From positions 1 through 64,000 of the forward strand of contig CACHEI010000008.1 in assembly GCA_902578815.1 (NCBI GenBank): 64,000 nt of DNA, given 5' to 3'. Made by a program: the position numbers and the translations under genes. The notes below the pieces were generated by a model that saw only the letters and a list, made by a program, of their open reading frames with translations, was not told the DNA's origin and ran no database searches. Below are positions 11,387 to 32,409 of this stretch, in pieces. The stretch is from an uncultured SAR116 cluster alpha proteobacterium. GTDB taxonomy: Bacteria; Pseudomonadota; Alphaproteobacteria; Puniceispirillales; Puniceispirillaceae. Positions within the stretch are counted from its first letter, which is position 1. Each line of letters opens with the position of its first letter.

Positions 11387-12259
11387 CTATGACTTTTGCC
11401 GCCTGATGTAGGCCGATGGGTCAATAATTACAGTGCCGACCCCGACAATCACTACGGCACCACCAAGCGAGACAACTATATCCGGGCGCTCACCCAAAAA
11501 AGTGACCGCCCCTAGGATAGTTGCCACAGGTAATAGCAGCAAAACAGGCATTACCATTGGAACCGGATACCTGGCCAGAATAAAGTACCATGCAGAATAA
11601 CCAACAACTGTCATAATCAGACCCAAATAGAGTACAGTCCCCCAAGCCACCATTGGCGCTGTCAGAATCTGCATCACGAGGTCACCCTCAAAAAGCGTAG
11701 CGGCAAAAATCATCTGCGGGCCAGCCATAACGCCCATCCATGCTGTCAGTTGAAATCCTGTAATTGCGCCTTTCATTTGTCGGATCAACACTTGTCCAAG
11801 CGCGAACGCCAACGTGCCAGCGAGAATCAGAACCACACCAAAAAACTGACCTTGAAGTGAGGGTGCGCCAACTATCGTCAAAATGCCAAGACAGGAGATG
11901 GCAATGCCCAAAACCTGCTTATTTGATGGTTTTTCACCCAAAAGCAATGCCGCAATAATCACGCCAAAAATCACCTCTGCCTGCACCAACAGAACAGCTG
12001 GAGTAGCTTCCATCCGTGCAAGCCCGGAAAATGTCAGGCCATATTGTAATGTTGCTGCGATGAATGAGATGCCGCAGATCTTTCTCAGATAGCCACGTGG
12101 GACTGGAACAAACCAGACCAACACCGTCGCTGCAATAAGGAAGCGCATGCCCATAAGCAATAACGGAGAAAAATGATCCAGCCCACCCTTTGCCAGGGCA
12201 AAGCCAAACCCCCATGTTAGCGGTACCAGAAGTGCAATCAGGGTATGTCTGATCGTCAT
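11387..12259 (-). CDS. EamA/DMT-family transporter
   Basis: A 290-residue drug/metabolite transporter of about ten membrane helices in two EamA repeats, starting with LIALLVPLTWGFGFALAKGG and with the conserved LLGEKP loop after helix 4. These proteins export amino acids and other small metabolites, or sometimes import them. It is the last gene of the six-gene minus-strand run that begins with adhC, 39 bases after the ArgE-like gene. It may carry a substrate or product of that pathway. Confidence 0.85.
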   Translation of the reverse strand: MTIRHTLIALLVPLTWGFGFALAKGGLDHFSPLLLMGMRFLIAATVLVWFVPVPRGYLRKICGISFIAATLQYGLTFSGLARMEATPAVLLVQAEVIFGVIIAALLLGEKPSNKQVLGIAISCLGILTIVGAPSLQGQFFGVVLILAGTLAFALGQVLIRQMKGAITGFQLTAWMGVMAGPQMIFAATLFEGDLVMQILTAPMVAWGTVLYLGLIMTVVGYSAWYFILARYPVPMVMPVLLLLPVATILGAVTFLGERPDIVVSLGGAVVIVGVGTVIIDPSAYIRRQKS

Positions 12260-12298
12260 CGTCGTAGCATCACTTCAATTGGGTTCTGAGCCTAAATC

Positions 12299-13474
12299 TT
12301 ACTTGGCCGATTCAAGGTGATCAAGGACAAGGTCAAGAAACTGTAACCCTTGTTCCATAGCTGCTTCTTCTATATGCTCATTTGCCTGATGCATTTGTGC
12401 CATTTCACCCGGGCCGAATATAATTGTCTCCAGTCCAGCCTTCTGGAAATAGGCACCATCAGTGCCGAATGAGACAACACCCGGCTCTTCATTTGTCCAT
12501 AAGCGCGCTACAAGTTTAGCGGCCGTCGAATTTGGACGGGGCTCCATCCCGGGAACATCCGAGACAATTGTCAATTTGATATCCGCATTGTGTGAAAGTG
12601 CTCTCATTTCAGGCACAAGGACATCATTAGCAAAGGCGCGGATATTTGCCAGAATAGGAAACGGATCGTCCCCCGGAAGAGGTCGTATCTCCCAATCGAA
12701 CTGACAAAATGCCGGAATGACATTTCGCGCCTCGCCACCATTGATCAAACCTACAGAGACACTGGTGTATGGTGGATCAAACGGTGATGCAGGATCTGGC
12801 CTGCTGGCAAGATCACGAGCGGTCTGGTTGATAAATTCAATCAGTCGGGCCGCGTAGAAAATGGCATTAACTTTGCCCGCCGGCTTTGATGCGTGCCCGG
12901 GTGTTCCAGTAACTTCTGCTAACAGCTCAATGCCACCTTTGTGACCGATGAAGGGCCGCATATTTGTCGGCTCGCCAATGATGGCCATTTCGGCGGAAAT
13001 ACCATGGCGGTCCAGAAATTCCGGCATCCGAGCGGATCCAAAACAGCCGACTTCCTCATCAAAAGTAAAAGCGAGATGGACGGGTATCTTCAACCTTTTT
13101 TGCGCGGCAACAAAATCTGGCACCATTGCCAGCACAATGGCAACGAACCCCTTCATATCCACGGCACCGCGCCCATAAAGTTTTCCTTGATCACGCCTGA
13201 GAACAAAAGGGTCACTCCGCCACCCCTGCGAAGAGGCCGGCACGACGTCTGTGTGGCCTGACAAGATAATGCCACCGTCGACAGCAGGGCCAATCGTGGC
13301 AAACAGGTTCATTTGCTGACCATCATCCGTTACATCCAGCAACACATCGATATCATGCGACTCCAAATAGGTTTTTATGTAACTGATGATCGCACCATTC
13401 GGCTCGCCACTCACTGTAGGAAAGGCAACAAGATCAGCCAAAAGATCGATTGTTCTCTCAAGTCGCGTGGACAT
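12299..13474 (-). CDS. ArgE-like M20 deacetylase (acetylornithine deacetylase family)
   Basis: A 391-residue M20 metallopeptidase-fold hydrolase. GHTDVVPA has the first metal His, GRGAVDMKG the bridging Asp, and TFDEEVGCFG the catalytic Glu pair; a dimerisation domain is inserted in the middle. It most resembles bacterial acetylornithine deacetylase, which removes N-acetyl groups from amino acids. Here it lies 3 bases after an ectoine-hydrolase-like gene. Ectoine hydrolases release N-acetyl-diaminobutyrate, so a role in deacetylating that kind of product is plausible. A true ArgE role in arginine synthesis is the alternative. Confidence 0.82.
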   Translation of the reverse strand: MSTRLERTIDLLADLVAFPTVSGEPNGAIISYIKTYLESHDIDVLLDVTDDGQQMNLFATIGPAVDGGIILSGHTDVVPASSQGWRSDPFVLRRDQGKLYGRGAVDMKGFVAIVLAMVPDFVAAQKRLKIPVHLAFTFDEEVGCFGSARMPEFLDRHGISAEMAIIGEPTNMRPFIGHKGGIELLAEVTGTPGHASKPAGKVNAIFYAARLIEFINQTARDLASRPDPASPFDPPYTSVSVGLINGGEARNVIPAFCQFDWEIRPLPGDDPFPILANIRAFANDVLVPEMRALSHNADIKLTIVSDVPGMEPRPNSTAAKLVARLWTNEEPGVVSFGTDGAYFQKAGLETIIFGPGEMAQMHQANEHIEEAAMEQGLQFLDLVLDHLESAK

Positions 13475-13477
13475 CGC

Positions 13478-14647
13478 TCAGATCACATGAACATGCTGTG
13501 GAAAGTCACACAGCCGGACACAGCCCGTCTCTGTTATGTGCAGAGTCTCGCTTAGTTCCATTCCCCAATCATCCATCCACATCCCCAAAATCACATGGAC
13601 AACCGCGTTTTGACGCATAATTGTCTGGTCCTCAGGCCGTAAAGACAATGTATGTTCGCCCCAATCAGGTGCGTAAGCATTACCTATTGAATAGCCAATC
13701 CGGCTTTTTTTCTCGAGACCGTGACGATCCAGCACCCTCTGCCATGCCTGATGAACGTCACTCGCAATAGCACCAGGTTTTAGCGCCTCCATCACTGCCA
13801 TCATTCCCTCTTGAACTGCGTCCGACGTCCGCATCAGCCTGTCCGATGGATCGCCGAGGTGCGCCGTTCTGGCCAACCCGACATTGTAGCGTTTTCTGCA
13901 CCCACCTAGCTCAAACGCCACGGTTTGCCCTGCTTCAAGTGGTGCATCGTTCCACATTGGGTGCGCCGCTGTCGCCGCTTCACCCGCTAGAATCAGGGGG
14001 TGCAAGGCGGGCATGTCTCCACCAAATTCTGGCGTTCCCTTGATCATCGCGGCGGTGATTTCAGCCATCAGATCGCATTGCCGCACGCCTATTCGCGCAC
14101 CATTCCATGCCGTCTGCATCGTGACTTCGGCAATCTGACTCGCCTGCCTCATCATGGCAATTTCGGCATCACTCTTGACGAACCGCAACCAGTTCATCAG
14201 TAAATCAGCCCCTGTCCAGCTAGCATTCGGCAAGCCAGCCTGCAACGCTCCAACAGCACGTGGTGTTAAGTAATAGACATCATCCTCAAAGCCGATTCGC
14301 GCCGTGGCAAAGCCATTGCCAGCCATCCAATCTGCCAGAAACTCCATAGGATGAGTGTCGAGACGCTGCACCAGCGGCTCTGGATAGGCAAGAATTTGCG
14401 ATTCTGTCAGATAGGTAGTGAATTTTGCCGATCCCGCATCCATCGGGCGCCCTATCCAAAATGGCCCGTCCTGCAAATCGACAAGCATGATCTGAGGCGT
14501 GTAGAACGACCAAGCATCATAGCCTGTCAACCAATTGATATTGGCCGGATCGCCGATGATCAAAGCTTCCAGCCCACGCGCAACCATTTCAGCACGTACC
14601 CTGACCAGCCTATTATTATACTCAGCTCTGGAAAACGCAGGTGCCAT
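13478..14647 (-). CDS. M24 creatinase-fold protein, ectoine hydrolase (DoeA/EutD)-like
   Basis: A 389-residue pita-bread-fold protein: an N-terminal creatinase domain (INWLTGYDAWSFY, PFWIGRPMDAGSAK) and a C-terminal M24 domain. The aminopeptidase metal ligands are mostly lost: FELGGCRKRYNVGLART stands where a metallopeptidase has Asp residues, and IGYSIGNAYAPDWGEHT replaces the His loop. Those stretches and MWMDDWGMELSE are those of DoeA, which opens the ectoine ring hydrolytically. The ATG at 14647 is chosen because GGTGAG precedes it; a GTG at 14662 is possible. It sits between a ureohydrolase and an ArgE-like gene. No DoeB, DoeC or DoeD partner is visible, so ectoine is only a candidate substrate; creatine-like compounds are another. 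Confidence 0.75.
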   Translation of the reverse strand: MAPAFSRAEYNNRLVRVRAEMVARGLEALIIGDPANINWLTGYDAWSFYTPQIMLVDLQDGPFWIGRPMDAGSAKFTTYLTESQILAYPEPLVQRLDTHPMEFLADWMAGNGFATARIGFEDDVYYLTPRAVGALQAGLPNASWTGADLLMNWLRFVKSDAEIAMMRQASQIAEVTMQTAWNGARIGVRQCDLMAEITAAMIKGTPEFGGDMPALHPLILAGEAATAAHPMWNDAPLEAGQTVAFELGGCRKRYNVGLARTAHLGDPSDRLMRTSDAVQEGMMAVMEALKPGAIASDVHQAWQRVLDRHGLEKKSRIGYSIGNAYAPDWGEHTLSLRPEDQTIMRQNAVVHVILGMWMDDWGMELSETLHITETGCVRLCDFPQHVHVI

Positions 14648-14671
14648 GACCGTTTGTCTCACCTGTAATAG

Positions 14672-15634
14672 CTAGTCGCTCATCCTGTGGGCAACTCCAG
14701 GAAGCACACACAGCATCTCAAATATCAAATTGGCTGCAAGAAGCGCCGTGTTTCCCTGTAAATCATAAGGTGGAGATACTTCCACAAGATCACAGCCAAC
14801 CAGATTTAGTCCCTGACATCCACGGATAAGTTCGATCGCCTGAACTGAAGTTAGGCCACCAATTTCAGGTGTCCCAGTGCCAGGTGCATAGGCTGGGTCG
14901 AGCGAATCTATGTCAAATGTCAGATAAACCGGGCGCGTCCTCATTTTAGCGCGAATACTGTCAATCAGTGGCGTTGCTGATTTGTGCCATAATTCTTCTG
15001 CCTGAACGATCGTAAAACCTTTGTCACGCGCCCAATCAAAATCCTCAGCGGTATATCCAGTGCCGCGCAGCCCAATCTGAAATGTATGATCAGGATCGAT
15101 CAGCCCTTCCTCAAATGCCCGACGAAACGGCGTTCCATGGGCAATGGATTCACCAAACATATGTTCATTGATGTCAGCATGTGCATCAATGTGAACAAGA
15201 CCGACAGGACCATGTTTCTTGGCAAGTGATCGCAGCACTGGCAGCGTAAGTGTATGATCCCCTCCGAGCGTCATGGGAATGACCGAATTGGTGAGGACAT
15301 TGTCATAAAACATCTCTATGCGGCGCACGGCATCCTTTAAATCAAATGTATTGATTGGCACATCGCCAATATCGGCAATCCGCAGCGAGTCAAACGGCGC
15401 GGCACGGGTCCACATATTGTAAGGGCGCAGCATCACCGACTCCGCACGTATCTGTTTTGGTCCGAAGCGAGTGCCAGGCCGGTTTGAAGTGCCTACATCC
15501 AGGGGAATACCAATAAAACACGCATCCAACCCGGCGGCATTGTCTGCTGTTGGCAAACGCATCATCGTTCCAGGACCCGCAAAACGTGGCATCTCATTGC
15601 CACCAAGTGGCTGGAATAGATCATCTTCACTCAT
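14672..15634 (-). CDS. Agmatinase/guanidinobutyrase-type ureohydrolase
   Basis: A 320-residue ureohydrolase with all Mn-binding motifs: TLGGDHTLTLP, HIDAHADINE and FDIDSLDPAYAPGTGTPE. The family removes urea from guanidino compounds such as agmatine, 4-guanidinobutyrate or 3-guanidinopropionate. The ATG at 15634 follows AAAGG; a TTG two codons earlier is less likely. It is the third gene of the operon starting with adhC, 10 bases before the M24 gene at its nearest frame. No urease or agmatine deiminase genes are nearby. Substrate specificity is not decided by sequence. Confidence 0.85.
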   Translation of the reverse strand: MSEDDLFQPLGGNEMPRFAGPGTMMRLPTADNAAGLDACFIGIPLDVGTSNRPGTRFGPKQIRAESVMLRPYNMWTRAAPFDSLRIADIGDVPINTFDLKDAVRRIEMFYDNVLTNSVIPMTLGGDHTLTLPVLRSLAKKHGPVGLVHIDAHADINEHMFGESIAHGTPFRRAFEEGLIDPDHTFQIGLRGTGYTAEDFDWARDKGFTIVQAEELWHKSATPLIDSIRAKMRTRPVYLTFDIDSLDPAYAPGTGTPEIGGLTSVQAIELIRGCQGLNLVGCDLVEVSPPYDLQGNTALLAANLIFEMLCVLPGVAHRMSD

Positions 15635-15665
15635 CGCCAAAACCTTTACCGATTTTAGTCAATAG

Positions 15666-16493
15666 CTAAAGGCGTGCGGCGTGCCAGCGCAGGTGATCAT
15701 CCATGAACGTCGAGATGAAGAAATAGGAATGGTCGTAGCCAGCCTGCATCCGCAAAGTTAAATTGATATTGGCCTTCTGGCACGCCGTCTCAAGCAGCCA
15801 TGGGCGCAAACCGCTATCCAGAAAGCTGTCGGCATCACCCTGATCAACCAGAAAATCAGAGCCTTGGTGCCCGTCCTCGATCAAGGCAACAGCGTCATAT
15901 GCGCGCCAACTGGCCATGTCATCTCCCAGATATTTGCCAAAGGCAGTTGCCGACCAGTCTGCCGTCATCGGATTAACAATCGGCGCAAAGGCTGAACAGC
16001 TCTTAAATCTCTCCGGGTTCCTAAGCGCCATAATCAGCGCACCATGACCACCCATCGAATGGCCAAAGATGCCCTGACGCGACATATCAGTAGCGAAGTT
16101 TGCCGCTACCAGTTCCGACAATTCGCCCAGAATATACGAGTACATCTGGTAATGCTTAGCATAGGGGTTTGCCGTAGCATTTAGATAGAAGCCAGCTCCT
16201 GAGCCAAACTGCCAGTTGTCAGCCTCATCGGGCACTTCATCTCCACGCGGGCTGGTGTCCGGACAGACTACGGCAATGCCAAGTTTGGCAGCCATGCGTC
16301 TGTACTCGCCCTTTTCCATGACATTGGCGTGGCTGCAGGTGAGGCCTGACAGGTACCATAGAACAGGGACAGGCCCTTTGCTATCCGGCGGCATGAAGAC
16401 AGCAAATGTCATATCACAACTAGTGGTTTTTGCCTGATGCCTATAGACACCTTGAACGCCACCATAAGACAGGGCTTTTGAGACAGTTTCCAT
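15666..16493 (-). CDS. fghA: S-formylglutathione hydrolase
   Basis: A 275-residue esterase-D-family alpha/beta hydrolase. YLSGLTCSHANVMEKGEYRR is the family's oxyanion region, GHSMGGHGAL holds the nucleophilic Ser, and GYDHSYFFISTF the catalytic His. It hydrolyses S-formylglutathione to formate and glutathione, the second step of GSH-dependent formaldehyde oxidation. Its ATG overlaps the stop of adhC as ATGA, so translation is probably coupled. Confidence 0.95.
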   Translation of the reverse strand: METVSKALSYGGVQGVYRHQAKTTSCDMTFAVFMPPDSKGPVPVLWYLSGLTCSHANVMEKGEYRRMAAKLGIAVVCPDTSPRGDEVPDEADNWQFGSGAGFYLNATANPYAKHYQMYSYILGELSELVAANFATDMSRQGIFGHSMGGHGALIMALRNPERFKSCSAFAPIVNPMTADWSATAFGKYLGDDMASWRAYDAVALIEDGHQGSDFLVDQGDADSFLDSGLRPWLLETACQKANINLTLRMQAGYDHSYFFISTFMDDHLRWHAARL

Positions 16494-17602
16494 CAGAATA
16501 CAACAACCGACCGGATTGACTCACCAGCATGCATGAGATCAAAGCCCTTATTAATATCCTCAAGTGCCAGCGTATGCGTGATCATTGGATCAATATCAAT
16601 CTTTCCCTGCATGTACCAATCGACAATCTTTGGCACATCGGTCCGGCCACGCGCACCGCCAAAGGCTGTGCCACGCCAGCTGCGCCCCGTCACCAGTTGG
16701 AACGGGCGCGTTGAAATTTCCTGCCCTGCCCCGGCCACCCCGATGATGATTGATTCTCCCCATCCCTTGTGCGCACATTCAAGTGCTTGGCGCATAACAG
16801 AAGTGTTACCAATACATTCAAAGGAATAGTCAGCGCCACCACCAGTCAACTCAATAAGATGGGCAACAAGGTCACCCTCGATCTCACTTGGATTGACAAA
16901 ATGCGTCATTCCAAATTTTTCACCCCATTCCTTTTTACTATTATTTAGGTCGACGCCCACGATCATATTGGCCCCAATCATGCGAAGACCCTGAATAACA
17001 TTCAGCCCGATGCCACCGAGGCCAAACACCACCGCATTACAACCAAGCTCTGCTTTGGCGGTGTTAACCACGGCACCAATGCCCGTAGTCACGCCGCATC
17101 CAATGTAACAGATCTTGTCAAACGGCGCTGCCTTATCAACTTTGGCAACAGCTATTTCCGGCAGCACAGTAAAGTTCGAAAATGTAGAAGTTCCCATGTA
17201 GTGAAGAACCTGTTTGCCATTGATTGAGAAACGGCTGGTACCATCAGGCATCACACCTTGACCCTGCGTGGTGCGGATAGCCTGACAAAGATTCGTCTTT
17301 GGATGGAGACAATAGTCACACTCGCGGCACTCCGGAGTATAGAGCGGGATGACGTGATCACCCACCTCGACACTAGTCACGCCCGCGCCTGCCTCGCGCA
17401 CAATGCCTGCACCCTCATGCCCAAGAATCGCTGGGAACATACCCTCTGGATCGGCACCAGAGAGAGTAAACTCATCCGTATGGCAAATGCCGGTCGCCAT
17501 AATTTCTACCAGCACCTCGCCAGAGCGAGGGCCATCAAGGTCGACCTCCATGACTTCAAGTGGTTTACCTGCCTCAAAAGCAACTGCGGCTCTCGTCTTC
17601 AT
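16493..17602 (-). CDS. adhC: S-(hydroxymethyl)glutathione dehydrogenase / class III alcohol dehydrogenase
   Basis: A 369-residue Zn-dependent dehydrogenase. CHTDEFTLSG and GHEGAGIV carry catalytic Zn ligands, a CRECDYCLHPKTNLC loop binds structural Zn, and GLGGIGLNVIQG is the NAD-binding turn. It oxidises S-hydroxymethylglutathione, formed from formaldehyde, to S-formylglutathione. The ATG at 17602 is chosen because GGGGAG precedes it; an ATG six codons upstream lacks one. It heads the minus-strand operon, implying that something encoded downstream yields formaldehyde or that methylated compounds are used. Confidence 0.95.
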   Translation of the reverse strand: MKTRAAVAFEAGKPLEVMEVDLDGPRSGEVLVEIMATGICHTDEFTLSGADPEGMFPAILGHEGAGIVREAGAGVTSVEVGDHVIPLYTPECRECDYCLHPKTNLCQAIRTTQGQGVMPDGTSRFSINGKQVLHYMGTSTFSNFTVLPEIAVAKVDKAAPFDKICYIGCGVTTGIGAVVNTAKAELGCNAVVFGLGGIGLNVIQGLRMIGANMIVGVDLNNSKKEWGEKFGMTHFVNPSEIEGDLVAHLIELTGGGADYSFECIGNTSVMRQALECAHKGWGESIIIGVAGAGQEISTRPFQLVTGRSWRGTAFGGARGRTDVPKIVDWYMQGKIDIDPMITHTLALEDINKGFDLMHAGESIRSVVVF

Positions 17603-17751
17603 ATTCCCACTCCCCAACATGTAAAGTTATTATGTTATTTGGTTGAATTCACTCACTCAAGAACGATGACACGACACTCAGGCAAAATTCAAGGCAGTTT
17701 TTGTGGATTGACCGCGTCTGTCCAGCTAACTCCCTAATCTTAAATAAAGAA

Positions 17752-18636
17752 CTATGAGCCGGAAGTTCGTTGAAAGTTTGACAAAAAATTTACTAATTCT
17801 GTAGCAACTCTGCCGGTCTGCTCAATGTGCTGAAAGTGCCCACAATTTTCCAAACACACGAAATAAGAATTTTTTAAAACTTCTGCCATTTCCCAGCTTA
17901 CATTTAACGGCACCATTCGATCACAGTCAGAGGCGATTACGAGCACCGGAACCACAATTTCTCCCACACGTTTACTCAGATCAAATCTGCTACAGGCGAG
18001 AAAATCCCCAAATACAGTTTTTGAGCCCGCATCAAGCATTCTTTGCTTGGCTTTTTCCCTGAAAAACGCCGCCATCTGCGGACTGTCCGCAACAGCCCCA
18101 GTTTTTTTATGCCATGAATATCTAACGATACTGTCGACAGTTGCTTCAAAAGTGTGTTGTAAACCTTCAAGAATAGAATCGTTAACAATCATCTTACTCG
18201 CACCACCAATCGCCACAACCGAACAAATACGCCGATGGTGACTTAGTGAAGCGTTTAATGCGACTGCGGCACCCATAGAATGTCCTACTAAGCATGTGTT
18301 TTCGAGGTCCATGGCATCCAAAAATTCCATGATGTCACTCGAATATTCATCTATGCTGGTTTTATTTTTGCCTTCCGATTTTCCATGCCCAGGTAAATCA
18401 ACAGCGTAGACTGAATAATCGTCTAACCCAGCATTAAAAAGCCTGATGACACCGTGATTGCTTGGCGTTAATCCAGCTGATCTAGTTTGATCGTTGACAC
18501 AGCGCCATGCCATTGGCCAATCAATTTCTTGTCCACCCGCGCCATGAATTAGAACAATTTTCGGACTGTTGATATCTCCAATAACACCATTGAAACTGTA
18601 TGATATTTCGTGATTTTGGATAGTGACTTTGGGCAT
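17752..18636 (-). CDS. Alpha/beta hydrolase
   Basis: A 294-residue alpha/beta hydrolase. VLIHGAGG is the oxyanion loop, GHSMGAA holds the nucleophile Ser, an Asp lies in ASDCDRMVP, and His is in ENCGHFQHIEQ. VDLPGHGKSEG is the conserved strand-4 turn. The substrate is unknown; it may be an ester, lactone or C-C bond hydrolase. It is AT-rich compared with the operon to its left and marks the start of the accessory stretch. Its own promoter probably lies in 18640-18780. Confidence 0.8.
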   Translation of the reverse strand: MPKVTIQNHEISYSFNGVIGDINSPKIVLIHGAGGQEIDWPMAWRCVNDQTRSAGLTPSNHGVIRLFNAGLDDYSVYAVDLPGHGKSEGKNKTSIDEYSSDIMEFLDAMDLENTCLVGHSMGAAVALNASLSHHRRICSVVAIGGASKMIVNDSILEGLQHTFEATVDSIVRYSWHKKTGAVADSPQMAAFFREKAKQRMLDAGSKTVFGDFLACSRFDLSKRVGEIVVPVLVIASDCDRMVPLNVSWEMAEVLKNSYFVCLENCGHFQHIEQTGRVATELVNFLSNFQRTSGS

Positions 18637-19302: not shown

Positions 19303-19899
19303 TTATTCATTCGCCCCTCGAGAGAGAGAACGGATGACAAGATCACTGAACACATCCCCAATATCCCCGGGAGATTGAAGCCCATCAGGTTTTAGCCACA
19401 GGCATGAATAAAAATACATTCCTAACAAGCCTTTCACAGCGATTTTATCAACTGGCCTAAACACATCTTGCTGGACACCTTCCTCTATTGTTTCAGACCA
19501 GATTTGTTGATATTCTGCGTGCATGCACATAACGTCATGGTGTCTTGAGCCGGTCAAAGACTGTACTTCGCGGAAACAGACAATTATCTCTGCTAAACTA
19601 CTACTAATCACAGCCATTAAGTGTCGGCTCAACGCTTTCAGACGCTGGATAGGATCTGGGTGTTCCTTTGCTATTCTATGGCCAGACTGAACAAGTTCTG
19701 AAATGTACTGTGAAGCAATTTCGTGAAGAAGGTCTTCTTTGCTTTCTATGTGATGGTAGAGAGTTCCGCGACCAAACCCCGAAGCCGCCCCGATTTCAGC
19801 GACGCCAACCCCATTGTAGCCTTTTTTTGCAAACAACGAGGCCGCCACCTTAGTTATCTTCTTTGCCTGTTCTGTTTCTTTCAATTTTTTATTTTCCAC
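19303..19899 (-). CDS. TetR/AcrR-family regulator
   Basis: A 198-residue TetR-type repressor. The helix-turn-helix is at about residues 15-60 (AASLFAKKGYNGVGVAEIGA, GFGRGTLYHHIESKEDLL), followed by a helical ligand domain. Members with this layout often control acyl-CoA or aromatic catabolism and sense CoA thioesters. It is transcribed away from the maoC/Mo-enzyme/etfBA operon, about 970 bp off. Two nearly identical 27-bp sites with an ACC-GTTT-GGT core lie in front of that operon and could be its operators. That link is inferred from position and site form. Confidence 0.85.
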   Translation of the reverse strand: MENKKLKETEQAKKITKVAASLFAKKGYNGVGVAEIGAASGFGRGTLYHHIESKEDLLHEIASQYISELVQSGHRIAKEHPDPIQRLKALSRHLMAVISSSLAEIIVCFREVQSLTGSRHHDVMCMHAEYQQIWSETIEEGVQQDVFRPVDKIAVKGLLGMYFYSCLWLKPDGLQSPGDIGDVFSDLVIRSLSRGANE

Positions 19900-20680: not shown

Positions 20681-20707
20681 ACTTGCATTGTACCGTTTGG
20701 TCTGTAC
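20681..20707. promoter_or_regulatory. Candidate TetR operator, copy 1
   Basis: A 27-bp element (ACTTGCATTGTACCGTTTGG then TCTGTAC) matches copy 2 at 26 of 27 positions. Its core GTACC-GTTTGGTCT-GTAC is an imperfect inverted repeat of the kind bound by TetR dimers. It lies about 190 bp upstream of maoC. Confidence 0.6.
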
Positions 20708-20763
20708 AATAAAATCAGAACGCCGTGGAAAAATTAAAGAAAGCATTCTGCGACGTTTTTGAC

Positions 20764-20790
20764 ACTTGTATTGTACCGTTTGGTCTGTAC
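20764..20790. promoter_or_regulatory. Candidate TetR operator, copy 2
   Basis: The second copy of the 27-bp element starts 83 bp after copy 1 and ends about 83 bp before the maoC start codon, so it probably overlaps or abuts the promoter. Conservation in otherwise diverged AT-rich DNA argues for a bound site rather than chance. Confidence 0.6.
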
Positions 20791-20873
20791 CGTCTTTTGC
20801 TGGTTACCTTAAATAGATCGTGCTTATTCATTTCGGCCTTTGTGACACCTAATTAAAATTATGAAAGCGTTGT

Positions 20874-21329
20874 ATGTCTGTCGCAGAAAGAAAAAATGGC
20901 TGGGAGGGCGTTGTAAACGGCAAACCAAAAATCGGGCAATCTAGTGAACGGTCTCGTACCACTAGGTCGGAGGATATCAAAGCATTTACCGAGATGACTG
21001 GTGACAAGAATCCAGTTCACTATGACGAGGAACTTGCGAAAAAAACACCGTTTGGCAAGCTTATAGTACAAGGTGGTGTAACAACCGGTCTTCTTAACGC
21101 CTGTGTTGCTGAAGACTTGCCCGGACCTGGAACGGTGTTTTTATCCACTGAACTAAAATTTATAAAAGCTGTAGGTATCGGAGAAAAATTGACTGCTCGC
21201 GTTGAAATTGAATCTGTAAGAGACGACAAACCCATTTGCAAGCTGATAACTTCTATCACCGACAGTGCTGGTGATTTATGTGTTGGCGGCACCGCAACAA
21301 CTTACACCATGCCGCTCAAAGGCCTTTGA
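20874..21329 (+). CDS. MaoC-like hydratase (hot-dog fold)
   Basis: A 151-residue protein of the (R)-specific enoyl-CoA hydratase family. MTGDKNPVHYDEELAKKTPFG has the catalytic Asp (44) and His (49), and LIVQGG the following conserved turn. The family hydrates trans-2-enoyl-CoA or related thioesters. It is the first gene of an operon with a sulfite-oxidase-family Mo enzyme and etfBA, with a 59-bp gap before the Mo enzyme. The ATG at 20874 has only a weak ribosome-binding site. The presence of a CoA-type enzyme suggests the pathway deals with an acyl-CoA, possibly a sulfur-containing one; that is inference. Confidence 0.8.
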   Translation: MSVAERKNGWEGVVNGKPKIGQSSERSRTTRSEDIKAFTEMTGDKNPVHYDEELAKKTPFGKLIVQGGVTTGLLNACVAEDLPGPGTVFLSTELKFIKAVGIGEKLTARVEIESVRDDKPICKLITSITDSAGDLCVGGTATTYTMPLKGL

Positions 21330-21388
21330 AACGCGGAAAACTTTTCCAAAAGACTTTAATAGATATATAATAATGCGGAGTGTTAATT

Positions 21389-22651
21389 ATGTCAGAAGAG
21401 ATGGAACTTGAAGGTGAATGGGTAATGGGTTGGCCCGATCGTAAACGGGCCCGCGTAATGCCAAGCAAAGATGCAGAAGGGCGGACTATATTCGCACGCT
21501 CTCCAGTACTTGATCTTGAGGGAGTCCTGACACCAACTGACGCTTATTATGTGATAGCTCAACTTAACATGCCTGATCCGGTTCATCCAGATGACTTCTC
21601 TTTTTCAATCGGCGGAATGGTTAACAATCCAATCGAGTATGCCCTTGAAGACATTCGAAAGTTTCCAGGACGCACTGTGCGTGCCGTGACCGAATGTGCA
21701 GGCAATGACGGTGAATTTTGGGACTACATCGAAGAGGGAAAAAATACTCGGAAGCCATCGTTGCGCGTTGTTCAAGCTGAAGAGGGTGGCTGGCGCCAAT
21801 CTGGAGACGACGAAGAGTCTATGAAAATCGAGAATATCCTCGAGTCTATTCCCACAACGGGTCTAGTCAGTGGCGGTGAGTGGACTGGGGTACCGTTTAA
21901 GACTTTACTTGAGCTAGCTGGCATCCAAGATGGTGCAGTTTCTGTCGCCCTTCATGGCTGGGATGAAGGCAGACCTGACCCAGTAACACAATACATGTCA
22001 GCCGGCCGCACTGACTTCGATGTAGTTGACCCCGGCGTCATAAATTATGCAAAGGCGATGCCGATAGAAAAAGCTCTTCACGAAGACACAATTCTGGCAT
22101 GGGCTCACAATGGTGAGTACTTGACTCATGTGCACGGTGCGCCATTGCGATTAGTTGTGCCGGGTTGGGCAGGAAATTGGTGGGTGAAATGGATTGATAG
22201 GATAGAAATACTCGATCACACGCCAGATTTCTATTATCAAACCCATTATTTTGTGAGCGGTAAGTCACCGGATGATCCCAATAAAAAGCCTATGAAGGTT
22301 CTTGGGGTAAAAGCGTTAATTACGTCACCTCGAGACGAGGATGGCCCAATAAAGTGTGGTTCGCATGCTATAACTGGCCGTACTTGGAGTGGCGAGGGTG
22401 CCGTCGTTCGTGTTGAAATTAGCACGGATGGTGGTGAAAGCTGGAACGATGCAATTATAGAGGAGTCGAATGACCGTTGGCTATGGCGGCGTTTCCACTA
22501 TGTGTGGGATGTTTCCGAACCAGGACAATACAAAATAATGGCAAGGGGAACTGACGAAAAAGGCAGAGTTCAACCTACTATGGACTGGAACTTTCAGCGC
22601 AAGCACTTTGACGGTATCGTGCCTGAAAATATCATTGTAGAGAAAGGGTGA
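21389..22651 (+). CDS. Sulfite-oxidase-family molybdopterin enzyme, no signal peptide
   Basis: A 420-residue protein. A Mo-cofactor domain with the Mo-binding Cys in VTECAGN (Cys about 103) and HGAPLRLVVPGWAGNWWVKW is followed by the Mo-co dimerisation domain (STDGGESWNDA). About 40 extra residues follow the Mo-Cys before GEWTGVPFKTLL. SoxC, encoded 8 kb away, is a relative. Unlike SoxC it has no Tat or Sec signal: the N-terminus is acidic and polar (MSEEMELEGE). It should therefore be cytoplasmic. It lies 7 bases before etfB, so an ETF is a likely electron acceptor. GGAG precedes the ATG at 21389. The substrate (sulfite or an organic S- or N-compound) is unknown. Confidence 0.85.
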   Translation: MSEEMELEGEWVMGWPDRKRARVMPSKDAEGRTIFARSPVLDLEGVLTPTDAYYVIAQLNMPDPVHPDDFSFSIGGMVNNPIEYALEDIRKFPGRTVRAVTECAGNDGEFWDYIEEGKNTRKPSLRVVQAEEGGWRQSGDDEESMKIENILESIPTTGLVSGGEWTGVPFKTLLELAGIQDGAVSVALHGWDEGRPDPVTQYMSAGRTDFDVVDPGVINYAKAMPIEKALHEDTILAWAHNGEYLTHVHGAPLRLVVPGWAGNWWVKWIDRIEILDHTPDFYYQTHYFVSGKSPDDPNKKPMKVLGVKALITSPRDEDGPIKCGSHAITGRTWSGEGAVVRVEISTDGGESWNDAIIEESNDRWLWRRFHYVWDVSEPGQYKIMARGTDEKGRVQPTMDWNFQRKHFDGIVPENIIVEKG

Positions 22652-22658
22652 TCTTTTT

Positions 22659-23471
22659 ATGAAGATTGTGGTGTGTGTTAAACAGATTCAGAATCCTGAG
22701 ATCCCAGCGGCTCAATTTCGCATTGACGAAGAAGCAAAGGTATTAATCCCTGTATCTGGTTTGTCACCTGTCCTTAGCCCTTTCGATGAACAAGCAATTG
22801 AAGCTGCGTTGAGAATACGTGATAGGGCGGGGGAAAACTCAGACATAGAGATAACGGTTGTGACTATTGCTTCAAAAGGATCTCGCACGGCAATTAAAGG
22901 AGCACTCGCTTTAGGTGCCGACAATGCTGTTTTGCTGAATGAACCGACGTTTGATGGAAGTGGTGGGTATGTCACTGCTCGCAACCTAGCTGAGACAATC
23001 CGCGCAATTGGTGACGTGGACTTAATCCTAACTGGACGTCAAGCTGCCGACGGGGATGCTGGTGTTGTAGGGCTTGGGATTGCTGAAATCTTAGATATTC
23101 CGGCTATTACTTTTGCTTGTGACGTCCAGACCGATGAAGGGGTCGTTACAGTAAAACGCGTTCTTCAAGATGGCATTGAAACAGTTGAAGCAGATTTGCC
23201 AGCACTGGTAACCATCTCCAACGAATTAGGCAAAGTCCGCCATGCATCCATGCGCGAGACTATGCGCGCAGCCAAGAAACCAGTGAAGGAATGGATGCCA
23301 GAAGATATTGGTCTCGATGACAACCAGGTGAGCTCTAAAGCTATGCGTCATGAGCTACAGCGCCTCTATATCCCAGTTAACGATATAGAATGTGAATTCA
23401 TTGATGGCGATACACCAGCCGAAATAGCTGCCACCCTTGCTCAGCACATGCGCCAAGCCAACTTGATATAG
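22659..23471 (+). CDS. etfB: Electron transfer flavoprotein beta subunit
   Basis: A 270-residue EtfB with N-terminal MKIVVCVKQIQNPE, SPFDEQAIEAALRIRD, GRQAADGDAGVVG, and NELGKVRHASMRETM near the C-terminus, which matches the AMP- and partner-binding regions. With EtfA it carries electrons from flavin dehydrogenases to ETF-quinone oxidoreductase. It starts 7 bases after the Mo-enzyme stop and 10 bases before etfA, so it is part of that operon. The wording of its motifs differs from the usual housekeeping EtfB, suggesting a pathway-specific copy. Confidence 0.92.
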   Translation: MKIVVCVKQIQNPEIPAAQFRIDEEAKVLIPVSGLSPVLSPFDEQAIEAALRIRDRAGENSDIEITVVTIASKGSRTAIKGALALGADNAVLLNEPTFDGSGGYVTARNLAETIRAIGDVDLILTGRQAADGDAGVVGLGIAEILDIPAITFACDVQTDEGVVTVKRVLQDGIETVEADLPALVTISNELGKVRHASMRETMRAAKKPVKEWMPEDIGLDDNQVSSKAMRHELQRLYIPVNDIECEFIDGDTPAEIAATLAQHMRQANLI

Positions 23472-23481
23472 GATCATAAAA

Positions 23482-24477
23482 ATGACTGACAATAACAATG
23501 GTGTTCTCGTAGTTGTAGAGGTGGAGGACAACCAGCCAATCGATCTGGGTTTAGAGATGTTAGCATTGGCAAGGCGACTCACTGACAGTATGGGCGGGTC
23601 AGTCACCGCCGTCGCTTTTGGCACTGGCCTGGAAACCATTGGTGAGATGCTGATTGCCTACGGGGCAGATCGAGTTTTAATAAATGATAACCAAATATTT
23701 GCCAACTTCCACGCTGAAGCTTGGTTGCCTGATCTGGCCAAAATAGTTGCTGAGTTGGCGCCCACTATTGTACTCATTGGACACTCAGAGTCTGGTACAG
23801 ATCTAGCCCCAAGGTTAGCTTTCCGCCTCGACGTTGATGTAGCTACTGGGTGTGAGTCAATTGATATCCTAAACGGGCGACCACATATGACGCGAAGTTG
23901 CTTCGGTGGCCTTGCTCGCGAAGTTGTCACTTTTTCTAAGTCACCTGCGGTAGCCACTATTCGTTCAAAAAGCCAACAGCCTCTGAAACCAACAACAGAG
24001 CGTTCGGGAGGGGTCGAAAATGTTATCTCAGTTCTTGATGTGAATTCCATACGCACTCGTGTTGTGAGCCGCGAACAAGAAGAAGCAGTTGGTGGAGTAA
24101 AGATGGAGAACGCAAAAATTGTGATTGGTGGTGGGGTAGGTTTAGGCGGACCAGAGGGATTTAAAACACTTAATGAAATTGCAGAATTAGTCGATGGAGC
24201 TGTTGGCGCCAGTCGCGCCGCCTGTGATTTGGACTGGTGCCCACGCTCTTACCAGATCGGTTTGTCCGGGCGCACAGTGGCACCTGAACTATACCTCGCG
24301 GTTGGCATCTCTGGTGCTAGTCACCACATGGCAGGCTGTGGCAACTCTAAGACCATTGTTTCGATCAATTCTGATCCAAAAGCAGAAATTTTTAAATCAT
24401 CTCGCTTCGGTATAGTTGGTAATTCTCAGGAAATTATGCCTGCTCTGGCGGAAGAGATCAGAAAGTTAAAGGCCTAG
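23482..24477 (+). CDS. etfA: Electron transfer flavoprotein alpha subunit
   Basis: A 331-residue EtfA. The C-terminal FAD domain shows IVIGGGVGLGG, VGASRAACDLDWCPRSYQIG, LSGRTVAPELYLAVGISGAS and SINSDPKAEIF. Normally the conserved stretch reads GQTGKTVAP and SGAIQHLAG; here it is GLSGRTVAP and SGASHHMAG, so this ETF is divergent. It closes the maoC/Mo-enzyme/etfBA operon and is followed about 390 bp later by a terminator. Apart from that hairpin, 24478-24925 has no gene I can see. Confidence 0.92.
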   Translation: MTDNNNGVLVVVEVEDNQPIDLGLEMLALARRLTDSMGGSVTAVAFGTGLETIGEMLIAYGADRVLINDNQIFANFHAEAWLPDLAKIVAELAPTIVLIGHSESGTDLAPRLAFRLDVDVATGCESIDILNGRPHMTRSCFGGLAREVVTFSKSPAVATIRSKSQQPLKPTTERSGGVENVISVLDVNSIRTRVVSREQEEAVGGVKMENAKIVIGGGVGLGGPEGFKTLNEIAELVDGAVGASRAACDLDWCPRSYQIGLSGRTVAPELYLAVGISGASHHMAGCGNSKTIVSINSDPKAEIFKSSRFGIVGNSQEIMPALAEEIRKLKA

Positions 24478-24925: not shown

Positions 24926-26680
24926 TCAACAACAACTAGTTGCGAGACTGTCTTGAGCGCAGAAACAGGTTTTTGCTGGCATGATATCAGCCCGAGAACT
25001 GCGTTCATTGAACAGAGCAGTGACCTCGGCAAGCTCTTCAGGTGCATCGCCACGTGCCTCAAGACAAAGTTTTAGACCCAACAAACCCCACATGTTGTCT
25101 TTCCAAAGTTTAATATCAGCACGATAGACAGCTTCTGCCTCTTCGATCTCACCTTGTTCGAAAAGGAGTGCACCAAGGATGTGGCGCACAGGTTGCATCT
25201 GTCCCCAGGGCTCATTATAGGCAAGGTTGAGTGATAAATTGACACCACGACGCAGGTGCTCAAAAGCAGCGGTAAAATCAAAAGCTTCACCGTGAGCCTT
25301 TGCTAGGAACTGTTTACGGTACTCGATTTCACCATCCAAAACAGCAGCATTAACCAAATGAATACACGGGCCGTCGCTTGGGTCTTGGTACATCAAGTTA
25401 TTATGCAGCACACGGCCGGCAAGCGCTGGGTTTTTAAGTGCCTCATAAAAGAGAGCCTGTTCAGCTTCTGCCTCTGCGACCATGCCCTTTGACGCATAGG
25501 CTACTCCGCGAGCATAGTGTTGTGTTACAATAGTGGAGGCGAAAACTTCCTTATCAGAGAAAGTTGGCTCAGAGATTATATCATCCCACATACCGAACCT
25601 AATCATGACGTGAAATGGCAAGGCGACATAAGACTCAAGGAAAATTGCACCCATTGGTATGATACCAGCAAGCATAAATTGCACGCCTGAGTTCTCGTCA
25701 CCTGCAGGATTTGCAGCAGCCGCTTTTCTAGCATACTTCATAGCGACTTCATACTGACCTTCAAACATTGCACACCAAACTACGAAGTGGTGATTATGCA
25801 TTCTGTAAAATTTGTAAAACTGCGATTCATTGCCCGTGAGTTCGACGTATTTATCATCGGCCTCTACAGCATTGATGTTACACTCCACAGCCTCTTTCCA
25901 TTGTCCAACCCAAGCATCTATATGGGACGGCATGTGTACAAGGTGACCCATACTGGGCATGGCAGTGCGTAACACATCGGCTGCGGGTAGGGCTCGCTCT
26001 GGAAATGGGGAAAGCTCCAAACAGTGGCAATACAAATGGCATAGTGCAATGTGTTCTTTTGCGCCATCAATGTTCTCAAATGCATCTTCCATAACCTGAA
26101 CGCAGGTTAATGTGTTGTCATCCGCCGGGGTGATTTCACCAGTTTCAGTGTTTTTATCCCACAGTTGCCATGCCTTGAGGTTCATTAGGGCCTCTACATA
26201 AATCGCGGCAACATCCAAGTTACCTTTATATTTCTCGTAAATAGGAGCCATGGCAGCCGCAAACGCAGCATTGAGTTCTGGAGTGTTACCCATGTTAAGC
26301 ACTGACGGGTCAGCTGCGTCACGCGCTTCTTTAGAATGGCGCTGGGCTAGTGCGTCGATAAGATCTTGCTCTAATTCTGAACATCCAGCTTTGAGAGAGA
26401 CAGCTTTTTGAATTGGATCAAAGCCCGAGCCTAGGCCGGGCGTCCAGTTGTAATTTGAGGAAACACAATATGCAATACCCCACCATGCCATTGCGCAGGT
26501 TGCGTCCAATTCGGTAGTCTTCATGTAGCAAGCGATTGCTTGCTCATGGTTAAAATTCAGCATATGCCCAAAGGCTTCAGCAAAAGTTTTCCGCGCATCT
26601 TCATTGCCGCAAGTAATCGTTGTGGCGAATGAATAGTTTGAAGCGTTTCCAAAATCGTAATCTGCAGGTGCAAGAGACAT
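24926..26680 (-). CDS. TPR-repeat protein with Cys-rich C-terminus
   Basis: A 584-residue helical protein with scattered tetratricopeptide units (for example NHEQAIACYMKTTELDATCA, ARGVAYASKGMVAEAEAEQA, EQGEIEEAEAVYRADI). The middle holds the conserved HMPSHIDAWVGQW and HNHHFVVWCAMFEG, whose clustered His and Cys could bind a metal. The C-terminus ends KTCFCAQDSLATSCC, with five Cys in the last 14 residues. No signal peptide is seen. The ATG at 26680 is preferred because AGGAGGGG precedes it. It is convergent with etfA. TPR proteins of this type are found in bacterial genomes, but I know of no assigned role; metal or thiol chemistry is only a guess. Confidence 0.75.
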   Translation of the reverse strand: MSLAPADYDFGNASNYSFATTITCGNEDARKTFAEAFGHMLNFNHEQAIACYMKTTELDATCAMAWWGIAYCVSSNYNWTPGLGSGFDPIQKAVSLKAGCSELEQDLIDALAQRHSKEARDAADPSVLNMGNTPELNAAFAAAMAPIYEKYKGNLDVAAIYVEALMNLKAWQLWDKNTETGEITPADDNTLTCVQVMEDAFENIDGAKEHIALCHLYCHCLELSPFPERALPAADVLRTAMPSMGHLVHMPSHIDAWVGQWKEAVECNINAVEADDKYVELTGNESQFYKFYRMHNHHFVVWCAMFEGQYEVAMKYARKAAAANPAGDENSGVQFMLAGIIPMGAIFLESYVALPFHVMIRFGMWDDIISEPTFSDKEVFASTIVTQHYARGVAYASKGMVAEAEAEQALFYEALKNPALAGRVLHNNLMYQDPSDGPCIHLVNAAVLDGEIEYRKQFLAKAHGEAFDFTAAFEHLRRGVNLSLNLAYNEPWGQMQPVRHILGALLFEQGEIEEAEAVYRADIKLWKDNMWGLLGLKLCLEARGDAPEELAEVTALFNERSSRADIMPAKTCFCAQDSLATSCC

Positions 26681-30031: not shown

Positions 30032-31306
30032 ATGGGCGTTGACAAGGCCAAAGATGGGTCCCTTTCTAGGCGCTCATTAATCGGTGGTGCTGCGGCACTG
30101 GGCTCAGTTGGGTTGGCCAAGGCAGCCGTCAGTACTGAAGCCAATCCTGACAATCTGCCACCAAACGTATCGGAGTGGACGCCTTATCTTGGTGATGGTG
30201 TTGATGCTAATCCCTACGGTATGCCCTCGCCATATGAAGAACACGTAGTTCGGCGCAACGTCGAATGGCTGACAGCCAGCACTGAATCTTCAGTCAACTT
30301 TACACCACTACATGAACTGGAAGGCTTTGTAACACCTAATGGTTTGTGCTTTGAGCGTCACCATGGAGGCGTTCCTGAAGTCGTACCGACCGACTATCGG
30401 CTTATGATAAATGGTTTAGTAGATAGAGAAATGATCTTTAGCCTAGATGATTTAAAAAGATTTCCACAGACAAACAGATTCTACTTTTTAGAATGTGCCG
30501 CGAACGGCGGTATGGAGTGGCGGGGTGCGCAGCTAAATGGCTGCCAGTACACCTTTGGAATGGTGCACAACGTACAATATACCGGTGTGTTATTGAAAGA
30601 TTTGGCTCGTGAGGTTGGAGTTAAGCCTGAGGCGCTATGGGTTATGGCAGAAGGAGGCGACTCATCCGGGATGAACCGTTCAATTCCGCTTGAGAAGATC
30701 ATGGAAGACTGCATGATTGCTTGGGCAATGAATGGCGAGGCTTTACGTCCCGAGCAAGGTTATCCAGCTCGTCTCGTTGTTCCTGGGTGGGAAGGCAATA
30801 TGTGGGTAAAATGGATCCGCCGCCTAGAATTTGGTGATATGCCCTATATGGCGAGAGAAGAGACAGCTAAATACACTGACCTTATGGAAGACGGCAGGGC
30901 ACGTATGTTTACTTGGGTAATGGAAGCCAAATCTGTAATTACTTCACCAAGTCCCGAGAAACCAATTATTAAAAAAGGTTTGCATCAACTACGTGGTTTG
31001 GCATGGACAGGTCGTGGTAAGATTAAACGGGTCGACGTATCATTAGATGGGGGAACGAACTGGAAGACAGCGCAGCTACACGGCCCAATTCTTGACAAGT
31101 GCCTCACCCGCTTCACCATGCCATTTGAATGGCATGGTGAAGAGCTGATGTTGCAATCGAGATCGATTGATGAAACAGGTTACGTGCAACCTACCATTGA
31201 CGCTCTCCAGAAGGAGCGTGGCGTGAACTCAATATACCATAACAACGCGATCGCAACATGGCTAGTTAATGGCGATGGGAGTGTCGACAATGTTCGGCTT
31301 GGGTAA
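30032..31306 (+). CDS. soxC: Sulfane dehydrogenase molybdenum subunit SoxC
   Basis: A 424-residue sulfite-oxidase-family protein with a Tat signal (SRRSLIGGAAALGSVGLAKA), Mo-binding Cys in LECAANGGMEW, the GWEGNMWVKWIRRLE signature, and a Mo-co dimerisation domain (SLDGGTNWKTA). With SoxD it oxidises the SoxY-bound sulfane sulfur, releasing six electrons, and its presence argues for complete thiosulfate oxidation to sulfate rather than sulfur globules. The end of the gene overlaps soxD. Confidence 0.95.
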   Translation: MGVDKAKDGSLSRRSLIGGAAALGSVGLAKAAVSTEANPDNLPPNVSEWTPYLGDGVDANPYGMPSPYEEHVVRRNVEWLTASTESSVNFTPLHELEGFVTPNGLCFERHHGGVPEVVPTDYRLMINGLVDREMIFSLDDLKRFPQTNRFYFLECAANGGMEWRGAQLNGCQYTFGMVHNVQYTGVLLKDLAREVGVKPEALWVMAEGGDSSGMNRSIPLEKIMEDCMIAWAMNGEALRPEQGYPARLVVPGWEGNMWVKWIRRLEFGDMPYMAREETAKYTDLMEDGRARMFTWVMEAKSVITSPSPEKPIIKKGLHQLRGLAWTGRGKIKRVDVSLDGGTNWKTAQLHGPILDKCLTRFTMPFEWHGEELMLQSRSIDETGYVQPTIDALQKERGVNSIYHNNAIATWLVNGDGSVDNVRLG

Positions 31307-31934
31307 ACTAGCGCTATCAATCAGCCTAGCAATTTTATTTTGCGCTGGGCTCTCCGAAGCTTCCGATCGTCCTTTTAATCTAGGCAGGTTAGCAACCGTT
31401 GAGGAAGTAGCTGGCTGGGACATTGATGTCCGTCCTGATGGGCTTGGCGCCCCAGTGGGAATGGGGAACGCCATAGATGGTGAAGTGATCTACGCTGACC
31501 GATGTGCAGCCTGTCATGGTGATTTTGGTGAAGCCATTGATAGATGGCCAGCATTAGTGGGTGGTGAAGATACTCTGGACACGCATGATCCGATAAAGAC
31601 AACTGGTAGCTATTGGCCTTATGCATCCACAATGTATGACTACATTTACCGAGCAATGCCCTTTGGAGAAGCACAGTCATTGAGCTATGATGAGACATAT
31701 CAAATCGTCGCTTTCCTCCTCTACATGAATGATATAATTGACGATGACTTCGACGTCAGCCATGAGAATATAGGTAATATTGAAATGCCTAATAAAGACG
31801 GCTTTTTCGTACCAGATCCAAGGCCAGATGCACAGCCCATCAGCGGTGAGCCCTGTATGAGCAACTGTAAGGTTGCCACCAATATCATTGGACGAGCTCG
31901 CGATATTGATGTGACGCCTGAATCTGAAAGCTAG
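31290..31934 (+). CDS. soxD: SoxD cytochrome c subunit, short single-haem form
   Basis: A 214-residue protein with a signal peptide (LALSISLAILFCAGLSEA) and one haem c site, CAACH, at about residues 72-76, plus Met in YRAMPFGEAQSLSYDETYQI. The end (EPCMSNCKVATNIIG) matches the segment at the end of the first SoxD domain. Paracoccus SoxD is dihaem and about 380 residues, so the second haem domain is missing. The stop at 31932 is genuine in this sequence: no second CxxCH occurs in the 58 bases before the next gene. The ATG at 31290 is preferred because GGGAG precedes it; 31269 is possible. It overlaps soxC. Confidence 0.88.
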   Translation: MFGLGKLALSISLAILFCAGLSEASDRPFNLGRLATVEEVAGWDIDVRPDGLGAPVGMGNAIDGEVIYADRCAACHGDFGEAIDRWPALVGGEDTLDTHDPIKTTGSYWPYASTMYDYIYRAMPFGEAQSLSYDETYQIVAFLLYMNDIIDDDFDVSHENIGNIEMPNKDGFFVPDPRPDAQPISGEPCMSNCKVATNIIGRARDIDVTPESES

Positions 31935-31992
31935 AAAAATAATCAGCAAAAGAATTTCGTTAATTAGCGAATTAAAAATCAAGGATAGTTAA

Positions 31993-32409
31993 ATGAAGAC
32001 TTTCACAGTGGCCGCTATGATGTTGACATCCATCCCGGCTCTTGCTGCCGAAATTACAATAGAAATGCTAAATAAGGATGCTGATGGCAACAAGATGGTT
32101 TATAGCCAAGAAATTGCCCGCGTCGATGTTGGCGACACTATCACCTGGGTTCCAACTACTAAGGGTCACAATGTGGAAATGATTGCTTCTCCTAACAGGA
32201 TGAAGCTGAAGTCAAAAAACGGAAAAAAAATTCAGGTGACCTTTGAAGATCCAGGCATTTATTATTACTGGTGTACCCCACACAAGGGCATGGGCATGAT
32301 TGGGCTTGTGGTTGTTGGCGGTGATATGTCAAATAAAGATGAAATAGCAAAGGCTAAAGCCATGGGTAAGAGCAAAAAGAAATTAAAGAAACTACTTGCT
32401 GATTTATAA
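31993..32409 (+). CDS. Pseudoazurin (type 1 copper protein)
   Basis: A 138-residue cupredoxin with a Sec signal ending ALAAE. The copper ligands fit pseudoazurin spacing: His59 (KGHNVEM), Cys94, His97 (YYWCTPHKGM) and Met102. A Lys-rich C-terminal helix follows. It is placed between soxD and soxB, so it is the likely periplasmic electron acceptor for Sox oxidation, passing electrons to a terminal oxidase or reductase. Copper-protein acceptors of this type are known for Paracoccus Sox. Confidence 0.9.
   Translation: MKTFTVAAMMLTSIPALAAEITIEMLNKDADGNKMVYSQEIARVDVGDTITWVPTTKGHNVEMIASPNRMKLKSKNGKKIQVTFEDPGIYYYWCTPHKGMGMIGLVVVGGDMSNKDEIAKAKAMGKSKKKLKKLLADL

Follow-up and report, generated by a model that had tools for sequence, protein, structure and literature searches.

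Here we describe a gene cluster from an uncultured SAR116 cluster alphaproteobacterium in which a molybdenum (Mo) enzyme of the sulfite-oxidase family is encoded together with an electron-transfer flavoprotein (ETF) of its own. It lies in a stretch of 64,000 nucleotides (contig CACHEI010000008.1, contig 8 of the 2.07-Mb draft genome GCA_902578815.1, which is 70% complete), referred to below as the window. The strongest statement that the data allow is that of a physical and evolutionary partnership between a cytoplasmic, non-canonical member of the sulfite-oxidase family and its own ETF. The most economical reading of this partnership, to which we give a modest preference, is that a cytoplasmic Mo dehydrogenase would pass electrons through the dedicated ETF and ETF:ubiquinone oxidoreductase (ETF-QO) to ubiquinone. 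Counted in its favour are the gene order, the ETF-QO gene that adjoins the cluster in one genome, the missing signal peptide, the missing cytochrome and several active-site replacements.

A conserved trio of genes

Four open reading frames follow one another on the forward strand of the window. The first, maoC (20874..21329), encodes a protein with a PF01575 domain (68.8 bits) and the Asp/His motif GDKNPVH, predicted to be a coenzyme A (CoA) hydratase of the (R)-enoyl-CoA type. The second (21389..22651, counted from its ATG) encodes the Mo enzyme of 420 amino acids, and the last two, etfB (22659..23471) and etfA (23482..24477), encode the beta and alpha subunits of the ETF. The intergenic gaps are 59, 7 and 10 bp, which bears out an earlier note, made from the letters of the window, that had placed the four genes on one strand with gaps under 60 bp.

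Orthologues of the Mo enzyme, with 91-100% identity, were found in nine of the 61 genomes of the SAR116 family (the window's own counted); the next-best matches, SoxC for the most part, reach no more than 38%. All nine carriers have the order maoC-Mo-etfB-etfA. Beyond this family, about 85,000 species genomes were scanned and yielded three gammaproteobacterial metagenome-assembled genomes (MAGs; loci L039, L041 and L044) with the same order and a Mo enzyme 90-92% identical to that of the window, a GC-rich gammaproteobacterium (L043, 84%) and a freshwater betaproteobacterial MAG (L042, 59%). The search of related genomes that the earlier note had proposed has therefore found the neighbourhood conserved across two proteobacterial classes. 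In all 14 orthologues found, etfB stands directly 3′ of the Mo gene and is followed by etfA. Furthermore, the ratio of non-synonymous to synonymous divergence of the Mo gene is 0.03-0.06, the lowest of the four genes, indicating strong purifying constraint; together with the invariant downstream pair, this argues that the arrangement is not due to chance.

Two of these loci, L042 and L043, have Mo-etfB-etfA without maoC alongside, so that the three genes constitute the core and maoC an addition, and the ETF goes with the Mo enzyme rather than with the CoA gene. Moreover, the Mo enzyme and EtfB share one branching order (L042, then L043, then the marine sequences), which argues that the trio has been inherited as a unit. 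It is quite unlikely, in our estimate, that the ETF would instead belong with MaoC to a CoA pathway and serve there an acyl-CoA dehydrogenase whose gene lies elsewhere, the Mo enzyme being merely co-regulated and using another acceptor or O2, as plant sulfite oxidase does. The CoA hydratase of the marine cassettes and the several acyl-CoA dehydrogenases of the host genomes would suit such an arrangement, but loci with no maoC alongside still have etfBA after the Mo gene, a housekeeping ETF is also found in nearly all SAR116 carriers, and the cassette gene lists include no acyl-CoA dehydrogenase. Neither do they include a cytochrome, a partner reductase or a ferredoxin gene.

The cassette is rare and patchily spread. 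Sampling of the phylum, of the order to which the L044 genome belongs and of the class that includes the L042 genome brought no further carrier at strict thresholds; the best match to the Mo enzyme in a plasmid search reached only 35%, and the viral contigs searched held no relatives. At synonymous sites, the Mo genes of the window and of the gammaproteobacterial locus L044 diverge by 0.67, less than the window copy does from those of the SAR116 loci L034 (1.15) and L035 (0.95) of the same genus, which points to movement of the cassette between proteobacterial classes. Mis-binning of a single contig is possible, but the cassette occurs in three separate gammaproteobacterial MAGs.

A cytoplasmic enzyme without two sulfite-binding arginines

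The domains Oxidored_molyb (PF00174, 136.8 bits) and Mo-co_dimer (PF03404, 49.4 bits), both over the Pfam cut-offs, assign the Mo enzyme to the sulfite-oxidase fold family. Cys103, in the motif ECAGN, is the expected Mo ligand; it is invariant in the orthologues and aligns with Cys104 of SorA, and both the cysteine and the dimerisation domain agree with what the earlier note had seen. With the sulfite dehydrogenases SorA, SorT and SoxC, the enzyme shares this two-domain fold, the Mo-ligand cysteine and about 30-38% identity. Unlike them, it has no export signal and no cytochrome partner, lacks two sulfite-binding arginines, carries extra segments after the Mo cysteine (residues 109-155, approximately) and at about 195-220, and always stands beside etfBA.

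The N-terminus contains no hydrophobic stretch: the maximal Kyte-Doolittle mean over 13 residues within the first 50 is 0.83, versus 1.78 for the SoxC of the window (30032-31306), a protein with a Tat-like leader and a SoxC-model score of 622 bits. This contrast between an unexported Mo enzyme and a SoxC with a leader had been drawn in the earlier note, which also raised the case of a signal peptide missed upstream. The start codon is preceded by an in-frame stop at a distance of 5 codons in the window and of 1 codon in both L037 and L043, leaving no missed signal in these three, and the same hydrophobicity check made no signal peptide visible at the N-terminus of any orthologue. By its sequence, the enzyme is cytoplasmic.

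The active site was compared by alignment to the SorA structures. The position of SorA Arg55 (chicken Arg138) is occupied by Ile or Val in all orthologues (Ile56 in the window), that of Arg109 (chicken Arg190) by an invariant Gly108, that of Tyr236 (chicken Tyr322) by an invariant Trp238 and that of His57 by Gln58. The C-terminal region that should hold the third arginine (chicken Arg450) is not reliably alignable. In sulfite oxidase the residues of the four replaced positions build the hydrogen-bond network around sulfite (PMC5856855). In turn, Arg78 of SorT, matched to SorA Arg55 through its 49-residue distance from the Mo cysteine, carries the main electron tunnelling path to the SorU haem (PMC4760952). 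The loss of these residues would suit a change of substrate as well as a change of electron partner.

Part of this pattern is found in other members of the family. The SoxC of the window likewise has Trp at the tyrosine position, and SoxC proteins keep the first arginine and lack the second. Among the other full-length relatives compared, the first arginine is kept except in L019, so its loss is not unique to the cassette enzyme. L019 (G014:C1:333979-337572) is a second SAR116 protein of the family, in which only the first sulfite-binding arginine is lost (HYLLTHF) and the second (GNGR) is kept. Sulfite oxidases without a signal and with intact sulfite-binding arginines were also observed in aromatic or CoA catabolic neighbourhoods (L048:3920-5023 and L049:4007-5116), one of this pair inside a 4-hydroxyphenylacetate operon in Deinococcus.

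Could the enzyme be a cytoplasmic sulfite dehydrogenase after all, detoxifying sulfite released from sulfonates, or gaining energy from it, with the ETF as acceptor? Fold and Mo ligand are those of the family, the window genus has Sox genes in the vicinity, and SAR116 bacteria are described as producing sulfite from sulfonates (PMC12262181). The equivalents of SorA Arg55 and Arg109 are nevertheless missing in all orthologues, the scores of 205, 175 and 136 bits on the SoxC, SorA and SorT models fall far below the curated cut-offs of 420, 600 and 570, and in other genera Sox genes are not near the cassette. We regard this explanation as very doubtful. The Mo enzyme is thus a member of the sulfite-oxidase fold family, but its scores, its active-site residues and the lack of both export and a cytochrome partner would place it outside the sulfite dehydrogenases.

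A dedicated ETF and the direction of electron flow

Both ETF subunits carry PF01012 (111 bits in EtfB, 112.8 in EtfA), and EtfA has in addition the PF00766 domain (ETF_alpha, 102 bits) that binds flavin adenine dinucleotide. The divergence of this ETF, noticed earlier, is confirmed by identities of 29% (EtfB) and 33% (EtfA) to the genome's own housekeeping subunits. In the EtfB tree, the cassette proteins form a clade of their own, separate from the housekeeping EtfB with support 100/99; its neighbours in the tree are FixA, CarD and further ETFs, most of them bifurcating, and the housekeeping and trimethylamine-dehydrogenase ETFs fall elsewhere. The nearest solved structures are CarD (6fah) for EtfB and 7koe for EtfA.

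An outlet to the quinone pool is suggested by the freshwater locus L042, where an ETF-QO gene adjoins Mo-etfB-etfA; an open reading frame of 144 amino acids without a Pfam match lies between the ETF-QO and Mo genes (L042:7240-7671). More generally, ETF-QO was present in 19 of the 20 genomes searched, and across SAR116 it is general, cassette or no cassette. The draft genome of L042 (G138) yielded one EtfA and one ETF-QO in all, so that the trio holds the sole ETF found there. We dropped the argument that this ETF must be exclusive to the Mo enzyme, since the same genome has three acyl-CoA-dehydrogenase-like matches.

Three points weigh against the proposed path from the Mo enzyme to ubiquinone. 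The grouping of EtfB with FixA and the bifurcating ETFs places it among types that often take electrons from NADH. Given the acyl-CoA-dehydrogenase-like matches of G138, the L042 ETF might have partners besides the Mo enzyme. Finally, an AlphaFold2 model of the enzyme, built from 13 sequences, has a mean pLDDT (predicted local distance difference test) of 57, too poor for a fold search or pocket analysis.

The first of these points bears on the direction of flow. EtfAB could receive its electrons from NAD(P)H, or from another dehydrogenase, and feed the Mo enzyme, which would then be a cytoplasmic reductase acting, for example, on an S-oxide or N-oxide; MsrP, of the same superfamily, is indeed a reductase, and the cassette EtfB stands further from the housekeeping ETF than from FixA, CarD and other bifurcating ETFs, most of which oxidise NADH. 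Yet the beta-site loop of bifurcating ETFs, DGDTAQVG, is changed to DGDAGVVG or DWDAGVVG in the cassette EtfB, the cassette has neither partner reductase nor ferredoxin gene, and it is an ETF-QO gene that adjoins the trio in L042. We consider such reverse flow unlikely.

Pairs of this kind are known among flavin enzymes. Trimethylamine dehydrogenase (PDB 1o94) is likewise a substrate-specific dehydrogenase with its own ETF, but it is a flavin mononucleotide/4Fe-4S protein and its EtfB belongs to a different group. In CarCDE, LctBCD and other complexes of EtfAB with dehydrogenases, EtfAB is also encoded with a dedicated partner; these partners, however, are flavin dehydrogenases or reductases and none is a Mo enzyme, and for the cassette ETF bifurcation is not established.

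The marine cassette and its regulation

In its wider marine form, the cassette comprises an alpha/beta hydrolase (seven SAR116 loci), a TetR-family regulator (10 loci), the four operon genes, a major facilitator superfamily (MFS) transporter (seven loci) and a TPR protein (nine loci). The gene inventory of the earlier note holds for the four operon genes; it had overlooked the regulator with its operators, two features of sister genomes (the MFS gene and the TPR gene with a copy of the operator), and the ETF-QO neighbour in L042.

The TetR gene (19303..19899, reverse strand; PF00440 51.9 bits, TetR_C_24 77.7 bits) is divergent from the operon and adjacent to it in 10 of the 12 cassettes with maoC. 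Between them lie two copies of a 22-bp imperfect palindrome, TTGTACCGTTTGGTCTGTACAA, one at 20688..20709 (strand not assigned) and the other, with two mismatches, at 20771..20792, 103 bp 5′ of maoC. A copy is found 102-108 bp 5′ of maoC in 12/12 maoC cassettes. From its position and form, we infer that this motif is the putative binding site of the TetR protein. The same operator stands near the start of the TPR gene in L033, L036, L037 and L038, not in the window, and in genome G017 a further copy occurs on the contig to which its etfA extends. A genome-wide search found the motif at the cassette locus only and no distant regulon members; the leftover two-mismatch matches (G010, G139) were as rare as reversed-pattern controls, and two SAR116 genomes free of the cassette gave zero matches. 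The regulon would thus be local, limited to the operon itself plus the TPR gene of several genomes.

Among the accessory genes, the alpha/beta hydrolase (17752..18636, reverse strand) is the next past TetR; it keeps this place in the seven SAR116 loci and is not found there in the gammaproteobacterial ones. The MFS gene is absent in the window, L032, L036 and L037; 3′ of etfA in L034, of the window's genus, it consists of two open reading frames (13754-14723), as if it were being lost. Its product matches organic-anion transporter models with a score far under the cut-off. The closest plasmid-borne relatives of MaoC (62-74%) and of the MFS transporter (48-50%) adjoin each other in an acyl-CoA ligase/thiolase/OB-fold/MaoC/MFS operon of Sulfitobacter, Rhizobium, Shinella and Mesorhizobium plasmids, which, unlike the cassette, has no Mo enzyme and no ETF. 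This company hints at an organic acid or CoA ester connected with the cassette. The TPR gene (24926..26680, reverse strand) encodes a conserved C-terminal TCFCAQDS...C; homologues at 34-38% occur on many plasmids, once directly 5′ of a molybdopterin oxidoreductase (L083), and their neighbours are so varied that they give no function.

The flanks beyond the cassette vary. In the window genus alone, it adjoins a block of SoxC, a cytochrome-like protein and a copper-protein-like gene (30032-32409 in the window), and no other genus has Sox genes near the cassette. Upstream in the same genus (11390-17620 in the window) are genes for an exporter, acetylornithine-deacetylase-like and ectoine-hydrolase-like proteins, an agmatinase, S-formylglutathione hydrolase and class III alcohol dehydrogenase; L036 likewise has homologues of the last two, frmB and frmA, close to the cassette, on its opposite side. 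A link to methanethiol or formaldehyde, drawn from the frmA/frmB, Sox and flavocytochrome c genes near some SAR116 cassettes, was dropped because these flanks differ among genomes.

A proposed route and its meaning

Taken together, the core would be a three-gene electron-transfer module. The cytoplasmic Mo enzyme would oxidise an organic, probably non-sulfite substrate at a Mo-pterin held by Cys103 and hand the electrons to the EtfAB encoded by the next two genes; from there they would reach the quinone pool through ETF-QO, in place of a periplasmic cytochrome c. The marine form would be a TetR-controlled cassette with a MaoC hydratase and often an MFS transporter and TPR protein, a content suggesting that an organic acid taken up by the cell, or the CoA ester of that acid, serves as inducer or substrate. 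The earlier note had proposed a cytoplasmic Mo dehydrogenase feeding an ETF in a CoA-linked sulfur pathway or another one. Of that idea, the partnership between a cytoplasmic Mo enzyme and an ETF is supported as the likeliest reading, since the two are inseparable and co-diverge. Sulfite is not supported as a likely substrate, since two of the arginines that bind it are gone, and the CoA-linked sulfur pathway is not established, given that MaoC is dispensable.

No description of a Mo enzyme paired with an ETF was found in the literature searched, most subscription journals lying outside that search, and the passages available from two SAR116 sulfur surveys make no mention of one. We tentatively propose, as a claim that could well fail in one of its parts, that this would be the first case of a dedicated ETF linking a molybdopterin enzyme to ETF-QO; the enzyme would represent a cytoplasmic, non-sulfite branch of its family that acts on an organic substrate and has spread horizontally among surface-ocean bacteria.

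The cassette is found in abundant marine groups, namely SAR116 and a lineage labelled Oceanospirillaceae ASP10-02a; in the Southern Ocean, one study assigned as many as 11% of its reads to a genome of this label (PMC4620155). Its substrate is for this reason probably a real component of surface-ocean dissolved matter. To our knowledge, the electron partners of the characterised members of the sulfite-oxidase family are haem proteins, NAD(P)H-linked domains or O2. An ETF-wired member, if the proposal is true, would mean a new route from Mo enzymes to respiration and would add a substrate to those of a family that owes its name to sulfite.

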